From an uncultured Bacteroidales bacterium (GTDB taxonomy: Bacteria; Bacteroidota; Bacteroidia; Bacteroidales; Bacteroidaceae), in assembly GCA_902788275.1 (NCBI GenBank), contig CADAJV010000005.1, positions 1 to 40,608 on the forward strand: a stretch of 40,608 bases of DNA. Reading direction: 5' to 3'. Below the pieces are notes generated by a model. It made no database searches. It was given only the letters and a program-made list of their open reading frames with translations, and was not told the DNA's origin. The position numbers were made by a program, and so were the translations under genes. Numbering within the stretch: the first letter of the stretch is position 1; each line of letters opens with the position of its first letter. This document shows, in pieces, positions 34,471-36,260 of the stretch.

Positions 34471-34620
34471 ATGTATTGGACACTTGAATTAGCATCAAAA
34501 CTTGAGGATGCCCCCTGGCCTGCAACAAAGGATGAGCTCATAGACTACGCCCTGCGCTCCGGCGCCCCCATGGAGGTAGTGGAGAACCTGCAGGAAATAG
34601 AGGACGAAGGCGAGAGATAA
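34471..34620 (+). pseudogene. 5' part of a conserved small protein gene (DUF2795-like), cut by an insertion
   Basis: It encodes 49 residues, MYWTLELASKLEDAPWPATK through EIEDEGER, then stops. I recall intact Bacteroidetes members as about 70 residues ending in FFFNEDEY. Here the frame leaves the family sequence right after EDEGE, where the ATPase cassette begins. The family ending, DFFFNEDEY and its stop, survives at 36195-36224 on the far side of the cassette. A shortened 49-residue protein could still be made, since promoter and start are intact. Function of the family is unknown to me. Confidence 0.8.
34516..34615 (+). repeat. 100-bp perfect direct repeat, left copy (right copy 36097-36196)
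   Basis: The 100 bases from TGGCCTGCAACAAAGG to GAAGGCGAGA within the small gene are identical at 36097-36196. Flanking bases differ on both sides. The repeats bracket the ATPase cassette exactly. Confidence 0.97.
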
Positions 34621-34724
34621 ACAAGGACTGTTTGTCTCGCTGGTGCTTTATGGTTTAGAAACTTGTGTAAAAAATGCACAGGTTCACGATGAGGGAGGGG
34701 GAATGTCTTATATTGTAAGATTAG

Positions 34725-34749
34725 ACTGAAAAATCGTCACTTGTGCCAT
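34725..34749 (+). promoter_or_regulatory. Palindromic box, upstream copy
   Basis: ACTGAAAAATCGTCACTTGTGCCAT matches the downstream copy at 34799-34823 in 21 of 25 positions. It lies just upstream of the -33 box of the ATPase promoter. Confidence 0.55.
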
Positions 34750-34766
34750 TTTTTTAGCCAAAAGAT

Positions 34767-34797
34767 TTTGCGAATTTAGAAATAATAGCTATATTTG
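34767..34797 (+). promoter_or_regulatory. Promoter of the cassette ATPase
   Basis: A perfect -33 TTTG (34767-34770) and -7 TATATTTG (34790-34797) are spaced by 19 bp, the best promoter in the window. The leader would be about 35 nt. Confidence 0.75.
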
Positions 34798-34798
34798 C

Positions 34799-34823
34799 AC
34801 TGAAAAATTGGCACAGGTGCCAT
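34799..34823 (+). promoter_or_regulatory. Palindromic box, downstream copy at the transcription start
   Basis: The core GGCACAGGTGCC (34810-34821) has perfectly inverted GGCAC/GTGCC arms, immediately after the -7 box. Together with the upstream copy it brackets the promoter, as expected for a repressor operator pair. The binding protein is unknown. Confidence 0.55.
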
Positions 34824-34837
34824 AATTTCATTGCAAT

Positions 34838-36091
34838 ATGGAAATAAAAAGGGACGTATATCTGCACAAGCTGATTAATGCACGGCAAAATGGGTTTATT
34901 AAAGTCATAACCGGACCTCGCAGGTGCGGTAAGTCTTACTTGTTGACGACATTGTTCCATAACCATCTGCTTTCAGAAGGAGTTGATGAAAATCATATTA
35001 TAGAGGTGGAATTTGAGGATAGGACCAATATAGAGTTGAGAAATCCCGATGTCTTGCTTGCTTATGTGAAATCGCGGATAGTTGATCGTCAACTATATTA
35101 TGTCATTCTTGATGAAGTTCAGAAAGTTGATGAATTTGTTGATGTACTCAACAGCCTGCTGCATATTAAGAATGCTGATGTGTATGTGACAGGCAGCAAC
35201 TCCCATTTCCTCTCAACTGATATTGCAACAGAATTCAGGGGGCGCGACCATCAGATAAGGATTTATCCCTTGACTTTCTCAGAATACTATTCCGCTGTAG
35301 GCGGAGATAAGAGTGATGCCTGGAAAGACTATTTTACCTTTGGCGGCCTTCCGCTGGTGCTGTCCTTTGCAACTGATGCAGAGAGGGCAGACTATCTGCG
35401 GAAACTGTTTCAGACTGTATATATGGCAGACATCCTGGAGAGATACAAGATTAAGAATGACAAGGAACTGCGTGAACTGGTCAACGTCATGGCATCTTCA
35501 ATTGGCTCTCCCAGCAATCCCACTAAGATTGCTAACACCTTCAGGAGTGTAGAGAACTCAAACATCACAAGCCAGACTATTGATAAGTATTTATCCTATC
35601 TTCAAGACGCTTTTATAATAAGGAAAGCAGAACGTTATGATGTAAAAGGAAGAAAGTATATAGGAACGCTGTCGAAGTACTATTTTGAGGATTTGGGTAT
35701 CCGAAACGCGCTGCTAAACTTCCGACAGCAGGAAGAGAACCATATCATGGAGAATGTGATTTACAATGAACTTTGTATGAGGGGCTATCAAGTTGATGTC
35801 GGGCAGTTAGAGATAAGAAAGCGAACGGATGATGGCAAACAAGAAAGAATACGCCTTGAGGTGGACTTCGTTGTCAATCATGCAAGCCAGCGCTATTATA
35901 TACAGTCGGCATTTGCAATCCTAAACAAGGAAAAAGAAGAGCAGGAGTTGCAGTCTCTTGTCAATATAAACGACTCTTTCAAAAAGATAGTCGTTGCTAA
36001 TGGCAACATTAAACCGTGGCGCAACGAGAAAGGAATTCTTTTCATCGGCTTGATGGATTTTCTACTGGACAAGAAAAGCCTTGAGTACTGA
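34838..36091 (+). CDS. AAA_14/DUF4143 family ATPase
   Basis: The product has 417 residues. The AAA domain has Walker A GPRRCGKS (about 26-33), Walker B YVILDEVQ (about 88-95) and a sensor-like VTGSNS (about 119-124), then FRGRDHQIRIYPLTFSEYY. The DUF4143 half (about 200-417) includes a winged-helix-like stretch (SSIGSPSNPTKIANTFRSV, TIDKYLSYLQDAFII) and a restriction-endonuclease-like core, RLEVDFVV followed by YYIQSAFA, in which the usual ExK is changed to QSA. The family is common and patchily spread in Bacteroidetes and Archaea, with no settled function. It is the only gene of the inserted cassette and ends 5 bp before the right direct repeat. Confidence 0.93.
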   Translation: MEIKRDVYLHKLINARQNGFIKVITGPRRCGKSYLLTTLFHNHLLSEGVDENHIIEVEFEDRTNIELRNPDVLLAYVKSRIVDRQLYYVILDEVQKVDEFVDVLNSLLHIKNADVYVTGSNSHFLSTDIATEFRGRDHQIRIYPLTFSEYYSAVGGDKSDAWKDYFTFGGLPLVLSFATDAERADYLRKLFQTVYMADILERYKIKNDKELRELVNVMASSIGSPSNPTKIANTFRSVENSNITSQTIDKYLSYLQDAFIIRKAERYDVKGRKYIGTLSKYYFEDLGIRNALLNFRQQEENHIMENVIYNELCMRGYQVDVGQLEIRKRTDDGKQERIRLEVDFVVNHASQRYYIQSAFAILNKEKEEQELQSLVNINDSFKKIVVANGNIKPWRNEKGILFIGLMDFLLDKKSLEY

Positions 36092-36096
36092 ATTGA

Positions 36097-36224
36097 TGGC
36101 CTGCAACAAAGGATGAGCTCATAGACTACGCCCTGCGCTCCGGCGCCCCCATGGAGGTAGTGGAGAACCTGCAGGAAATAGAGGACGAAGGCGAGACTTC
36201 TTCTTCAACGAGGACGAGTATTAG
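36097..36224 (+). pseudogene. 3' remnant of the split small gene
   Basis: The right copy of the 100-bp repeat (36097-36196) runs on into GAC TTC TTC TTC AAC GAG GAC GAG TAT TAG (36195-36224), which encodes the family ending DFFFNEDEY. The repeat part and this ending are in different frames, and the segment I expect between EDEGE and DFFFNEDEY (about 16 residues) is missing, so there was also a deletion of roughly 50 bp. There is no start codon for the family frame. Confidence 0.8.
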
Positions 36225-36230
36225 GAAAGA

Positions 36231-36260
36231 AAAAAAGTGGCACGAAAATGCCACTTTTTT
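36231..36260. terminator. Bidirectional terminator between the split gene and the outer-membrane gene
   Basis: AAAAAAGTGGCA pairs perfectly with TGCCACTTTTTT around CGAAAA, giving a T-tract on either strand. It can end transcripts from the cassette side and from the minus-strand outer-membrane gene. Confidence 0.9.

Follow-up and report, generated by a model that had tools for sequence, protein, structure and literature searches.

About 1.5 kb of DNA, closely similar to a locus of an uncultured Prevotellaceae bacterium (L038), interrupts a small DUF2795 gene in an uncultured Bacteroidales bacterium, and was probably captured there by repair, in a single event, at a staggered break within that gene. 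The starting points of this account are a donor-like locus, empty sites in two relatives, a duplication of the target, a deletion beside it, a single target base shared by the two breakpoints, and microhomologies at the junctions. The window analysed here is the whole stretch of 40,608 nucleotides (contig CADAJV010000005.1, positions 1 to 40,608), and all features given below are on its plus strand.

The interrupted gene and the inserted cassette

An exact 100-bp direct repeat occupies window positions 34516–34615 and 36097–36196, and the 1481 bp between the two copies hold one AAA_14/DUF4143 gene; the repeat and its coordinates had been given in an initial annotation made from the sequence alone, and were exact on recheck. 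No further copy was found in the draft genome (2.48 Mb, 93 contigs). The GC content is 40.6% in the insert, 59.0% in the repeat and 51.3% in the window. The split gene is a DUF2795 gene by Pfam match. Its 5′ part (34471–34620), recognised from the ORFs, the Pfam match and the 73-residue match in relatives, is now a 49-codon ORF with a stop codon supplied by the insert. Its 3′ tail (36197–36224), placed by the sequence and by alignment with the empty sites, is now out of frame. The native DUF2795 terminator hairpin follows at 36236–36260 and resembles, in alignment, those of the relatives L015 and L012.

A DUF2795 search of 19 genomes of the genus gave a match in 17, one of them the window's own, and none in two. 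All 16 matched relatives align over residues 1–73, and the natural length of the gene is 73 codons; the alternative that the small gene is naturally 49 residues long is thus dismissed.

The ATPase gene (34838–36091) encodes 417 amino acids and was identified by ORF, Pfam and PADLOC searches. The protein passes the Pfam cut-offs for both AAA_14 and DUF4143, and matches the PADLOC model PDC-S01 (PDLC04787) over residues 3–412 (E 3.1e-119). A 5-bp spacer (36092–36096), also present in L038, separates its stop codon from the right repeat copy, as the initial annotation had described. No transposase or recombinase gene was found in the cassette: there is no second ORF of more than 79 codons in 34616–36096, and Pfam detects AAA_14 and DUF4143 only. 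Likewise, no inverted pair of at least 20 bp is present at the ends, and a local comparison of the first 60 bp with the last 60 bp scores 8 at best.

Upstream of the ATPase gene, a palindrome-like element is present twice, as R1 (34725–34754), about where the homology to several related copies starts, and as R2 (34799–34828), directly before the start codon. A lineage-specific palindrome is doubled before the start codon in several ATPases (window, L039, L172 and L177), and a copy is also found 3′ of the stop codon in L070, L080, L090 and L180. A scripted statistic for the palindrome is weak (17/162 loci at a chosen cut, against 0 in one shuffle each). The host DUF2795 terminator at 36236–36260 (AGTGGCA...TGCCACT) resembles the palindrome core (TGGCAC...GTGCCA), possibly by chance.

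Empty sites in relatives

Two relatives carry the site without the ATPase gene. The left and right flanks in the window are matched at 87% and 91% identity, respectively, by L015 (genome G016), and at 67–69% and 88% by L012 (genome G008); in each relative, the repeat segment is present once and the DUF2795 gene is intact (73 codons). These sites bear out the proposal that the ATPase gene splits a small gene that is intact in relatives, and neither shows the repeat pair without an ATPase gene that would have refuted it.

In alignments with L015 and L012, the left and right copies both leave the DUF2795 gene after GGCGAG. After the GGCGAG of the right copy, 49 bp are missing before ACTTCTTC relative to either relative, with AG at both ends of the lost segment; the deletion site lies at 36196–36197, at the same target base as the end of the left copy. 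The repeat search and the empty-site alignment thus resolve the left copy (34516–34615) into target sequence of at most 99 bp plus one coincident base, because comparison with L015 and L012 places the 100th identical base (A) outside the target sequence. The first 7 bp of the right copy (36097–36196), TGGCCTG, also occur 3′ of the ATPase gene in L038, and if these are derived from the donor, the duplicated target would be 92 bp long. As both copies stop at the same target base, a single break would account for duplication and deletion, whereas two separate events would need a coincidence. The initial annotation had supposed that the insertion duplicates, or recombines through, about 100 bp of target, with loss of roughly 50 bp of the host gene; duplication and loss are both borne out, at no more than 99 bp and at 49 bp, respectively.

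A donor-like locus

Window positions 34614–36103 are 98.1% identical to positions 2777–4266 of L038 (contig CAMJQA010000081.1, uncultured Prevotellaceae), a contig that ends 158 bp after the match. The matching segment starts within the terminator behind an intact DUF2795 gene belonging to L038 itself; that gene and the DUF2795 gene of the window are 76.5% identical over 149 bp. This starting point indicates that about 105 bp of donor-type flank (34616–34720), consisting of the distal part of a DUF2795 terminator like those of L038, L013, L004 and L177 and the sequence after it, was carried along with the gene. On the right side, L038 matches the 7 bp TGGCCTG of the right copy and then diverges, which amounts to a 7-bp microhomology; at the left junction, the microhomology with L038 is only about 1 bp. 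The left 105 bp or so of the cassette thus match donor flank, so that it lacks the fixed ends of a minimal unit, and the 'minimal cassette' of the initial annotation is not supported in this respect.

A second insertion with an empty site

In L172 (G135) and L206 (G148), a direct repeat of about 80 bp encloses an insert of about 1470 bp that carries the ATPase gene, and L211 (G148) and L212 (G226) represent the same locus without the insert, with the 80-bp segment present once each. In L172 and L206, the two repeat copies differ by 6–10%, so that this insertion is older than that in the window. The repeat overlaps neither a DUF2795 gene nor any ORF of at least 60 codons. Two insertions combine a duplication with an observed empty site: the window and L172/L206. 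The G148 assembly apparently holds both a filled site (L206, contig C20) and an empty one (L211, contig C49), possibly reflecting a strain mixture.

Direct repeats around other ATPase genes

From the loci fetched, 164 distinct ATPases of at least 330 residues were collected by script, 162 of them with enough flanking sequence. Direct repeats of at least 50 bp and at least 80% identity flank 18 of these 162 ATPases, compared with 3 of 123 neighbour genes (Fisher p 0.004). By the same measure, inverted repeats were found at 0/162 ATPases and repeats in 0/600 mispaired flanks; the latter result excludes chance as the source of the window repeat. An earlier, looser survey had given 16/152 ATPases at a score of at least 50 against 3/123 neighbour genes, and a still earlier, looser one took in 78 loci.

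L172 and L206, counted separately among the 18, represent a single insertion, and L049 contributes two genes. Further repeat-flanked ATPases among the 18 are L043, L069, L076, L160 and L178; a repeat similar to that of L069 is found in L075, apparently at the same site. Several others were rejected as target duplications. The L139 repeat is a member of a local multi-copy repeat, the right-hand gene at L193 belongs to a multi-copy family, the L209 repeat recurs on a different contig of its genome, and those of L022, L154 and L202 look by eye like dispersed repeats. In L070 and L064, the repeat is the ATPase's own palindrome. Several of the 18 are thus repeats of other kinds.

Of 26 ATPase copies checked, 25 with edges determined by pairwise comparison of loci and L172 with edges of its own, a duplication at the edge was seen in the window and L172 and in 0/24 others, the 24 being a hand-picked, partly non-independent portion of the pairs. 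Target duplication is thus not obligatory, and its use as a general signature of ATPase insertion is not supported.

The ATPase gene alone at unrelated sites

At DNA identities of at least 84%, 86 pairs of ATPase loci were compared. Fourteen pairs share more than 300 bp past the gene on one side and represent the same locus or a larger block. In the other 72, the common part extends at most 300 bp upstream and at most 150 bp downstream, and in 71 of these the sequence past both ends stays unaligned for at least 100 bp. Among the 71, the common part runs in 39 pairs from 100–260 bp before the ATPase start to between −30 and +150 of the stop, and in 26 pairs it begins less than 100 bp upstream of the start. 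Fifteen of the 71 pairs are at least 95% identical, for example window/L038 (−224, +12) and L039/L041 (−182, +2). In L173, two ATPase copies with a common part of (−112, +127) and at least 95% identity lie 3 kb apart in one genome. L042 and L044 are 98.7% identical over the 1491 bp that they have in common, the right flank of L042 being short.

These comparisons indicate that the ATPase gene moves by itself, that its ends are loose, and that target duplication occurs only in some cases. Spread of the gene on its own, as first proposed for this locus, is supported by the lone gene at unrelated sites (71/86 pairs). Its distribution is patchy: at E<=1e-110, it is present in 70 of 301 genomes of the family, in 17 of 30 genera.

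DUF2795 genes as neighbours

A scripted search found DUF2795 directly upstream in 4 of the 162 ATPase loci (window, L038, L049 and L177), of which the window and L038 are not independent. Between the DUF2795 stop and the ATPase start lie about 260 bp in L038, 245 bp in L177 and some 400 bp in L049, and no common core was identified. DUF2795 as a general target was rejected: a comparison by eye gave no further such neighbours among the matches listed, and the script gave the four of 162 only, of which L177 lay outside the matches listed. Around DUF2795 within the genus (among L004–L019), the 3′ side is similar in 1 of 78 pairs (13 loci) and the 5′ side in 92 of 120 (16 loci), suggesting that the downstream side is a variable spot in general.

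At L049 (418–4408), two different ATPase genes stand in tandem 3′ of DUF2795, and after each of them comes another DUF2795 tail. The locus holds three such tails and did not resolve into simple events; L290 represents the same site without the ATPase genes, at 71–75% identity.

Structure models of the ATPase

For the full-length model (pLDDT 88), Foldseek ranks the archaeal AAA+ ATPase SSO1545 (PDB 2fna) first, with an E value of 1e-8 and a TM-score of 0.48 by query length, but with 14% identity over the alignment. A search of the PDB by sequence with the ATPase gave no match. For a model of the C-terminal domain (pLDDT 86), the four Foldseek matches at E<=0.001 are all chains of the Bax1 endonuclease; weaker matches are the R2 retrotransposon protein, AF1548, McrBC, R.BspD6I, Can2 and Holliday junction resolvases, and the fold matches of this domain are modest (TM-scores about 0.3–0.5). 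All these proteins, Bax1 included, presumably have the PD-(D/E)XK fold. In nucleases of that fold, the third catalytic position is usually lysine. Across 31 ATPase sequences, E305, E311, D343 and Q356 are invariant, and the canonical catalytic D...(D/E)xK is absent, its (D/E)xK part being replaced by Q-[SV]-A, or by Q-S-S in L096. The ATPase, with its weakly nuclease-like C-terminal domain in these models, is a candidate cutter of the target and no more.

Proposed capture at a break and alternative explanations

The simplest account is a staggered break followed by fill-in and end capture. The DNA fragment, with one AAA_14/DUF4143 gene and little else, would have come from an L038-like bacterium. 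The target strands would most likely have been cut up to 99 bp apart within DUF2795, and the fragment would have been joined by its left end to the left arm, which stops at GGCGAG. At its right end, the seven bases TGGCCTG would have paired with the strand laid bare on the right arm; filling-in of the overhang would then have produced the second copy, as far as the same cut position, and rejoining of the right arm would have followed the loss of 49 bp, with 2 bp of microhomology. The variable ends, the carried flank and the microhomologies (about 1, 7 and 2 bp) argue for repair rather than for a precise transposase. The account is also favoured by the identity to L038 of the insert (98.1%) as opposed to that of the host gene (76.5%), the low GC content of the insert, the lone gene at unrelated sites, the L172/L206 case and the weak nuclease matches of the C-terminal domain. 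Against it stand the exact copies in a draft assembly, the 0/24 other copies with a duplication, the number of no more than two insertions that have a duplication as well as an empty site, a left microhomology of about 1 bp, and a C-terminal domain with modest fold matches and no lysine at the third catalytic position.

Two alternatives overlap with capture at a break, so that the likelihoods given to the three are not mutually exclusive. The ATPase gene might be a selfish, transposase-free element of one gene, whose product makes the staggered cut into which its own gene is inserted. The occurrence of the gene alone at unrelated sites, its patchy presence (70/301 family genomes, 17/30 genera), the two long target duplications with empty sites and the weak nuclease-like fold matches of the C-terminal domain are in favour of this reading, but neither the ends nor the duplication length is fixed, none of the 24 other copies is duplicated at its edges, donor-type flank was brought along and the canonical catalytic lysine is missing; overall, it appears unlikely. 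A broader form, in which PDC-S01 genes are autonomous, the ATPase nicking its target about 80–150 bp apart and host repair installing the gene, such that their abundance would partly reflect selfish spread, is a similarly tentative proposal. Alternatively, the ATPase may have been passive, the donor DUF2795 gene having paired with the resident one and illegitimate end joins having left the ATPase gene behind. This fits the position of the ATPase gene directly 3′ of DUF2795 in L038, and of DUF2795 just upstream in 4/162 loci. However, both repeat copies are recipient sequence, 75.5–76.5% identical to the L038 gene and neither of donor type, and the L172/L206 repeat touches no DUF2795 gene and no ORF of at least 60 codons; such homology-assisted transfer is a possible but doubtful explanation.

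An assembly chimera of two bacteria co-occurring in the metagenome is suggested by the draft state (93 contigs) and by the exact 100-bp repeat, a length near usual k-mer lengths. It is quite improbable, as it would need three chimeric junctions with homologies of at most 7 bp, the insert differs by 2% from L038, and the same architecture was assembled in G135 and G148 with copies 6–10% apart. The cassette is very unlikely to be what remains of a conventional transposon or integrative element after loss of the recombinase. The direct repeats that flank it and the recurrence of DUF2795 upstream, at 245–260 bp (L038, L177) and about 400 bp (L049), might point to such an element, but the cassette contains no recombinase or transposase ORF and no notable terminal inverted repeats. 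Also, target duplications of insertion sequences are typically much shorter than about 100 bp, whereas those seen here are variable and far longer.

Relation to known systems

Insertion with long target duplication was reportedly treated for restriction-modification genes by Furuta et al. in 2010, and the proposal is said to have arisen from a comparison of two Helicobacter pylori strains by Nobusato et al. in 2000. In the portions of the literature available here, such insertion is proposed for restriction-modification genes in several reports (PMC3031569, PMC1643837, PMC3154945, PMC4978471). The initial annotation knew of no described mechanism of spread for these ATPases, but judging from the available text of two of those reports, a fitting mode exists (PMC3031569, PMC1643837). 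The likeness lies in the contrast of gene and empty site with a long, variable, direct target duplication, found in the window and in L172/L206, and in an inserted gene that acts on DNA or is defence-like. Unlike the restriction-modification insertions, the window insert consists of one AAA_14/DUF4143 gene with no methyltransferase, belongs to another bacterial group, and has donor-type flank and microhomology at two junctions. By analogy, the event in the window would work like a restriction-modification insertion but is not one, the gene family being another.

Transposed genes of Arabidopsis offer a second likeness: according to the accessible part of the report, they are single genes at new sites with flanking direct repeats, five of which are present at the orthologous empty site, and formation of a circle with homologous recombination between the repeats is proposed (PMC2869330). 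They differ in being plant nuclear genes, on the same partial text (PMC2869330).

The window protein matches the model of PDC-S01, a PADLOC candidate phage defence, together with both Pfam domains. As given in the text available for these surveys, PDC-S01 is the fourth commonest defence across prokaryotes (PMC12988326), and in a survey of the rumen no other individual locus was more frequent (PMC13356809); in that text, abundance and transfer are treated, and neither a tested function nor the mode of insertion is given (PMC12988326, PMC13356809). A full-text literature search (DUF4143, AAA_14, PDC-S01, long target duplications) gave, in the text accessible to it, no insertion mode for the AAA_14/DUF4143 family. 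Insertion of a lone ATPase gene with long target duplication, as judged against empty sites, provides a concrete and testable route of spread for PDC-S01, and suggests how a candidate virus-defence gene that is very common can spread in the absence of a known jumping enzyme. The mobility proposed for restriction-modification genes may thus reach other DNA-acting, defence-like genes, raising the question of whether the abundance of PDC-S01 stems from benefit to the host or from mobility of the gene.

Relatives in phages and plasmids

Relatives of the ATPase were found at four loci in viral contigs (strict patterns), in 19 of 50,697 phage records and in 254 of 72,556 plasmid records. In Acinetobacter plasmids, a unit of about 1.8 kb with a distant relative (34% amino acid identity) recurs (L250 3595–5409, L288 and L289). 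Among the 40 of 208 matches listed for this unit, 27 end at query position 2707/2710, and 13 of these start at 896. A simple pattern revealed no pdif-like core at the unit ends, and the Acinetobacter ATPase DNA had no match among E. coli genomes.

In Prevotella nigrescens, a circular 'plasmid' of 2630 bp (L245, NZ_CP133466.1) has two annotated genes, for a related ATPase and a specificity-domain protein. In another strain (L246, NZ_CP082843.1 384227–393468), the same ATPase protein is encoded between two Eco57I-type genes, near an invertase of the Mpi family. The 2630-bp circle may be an excision product.
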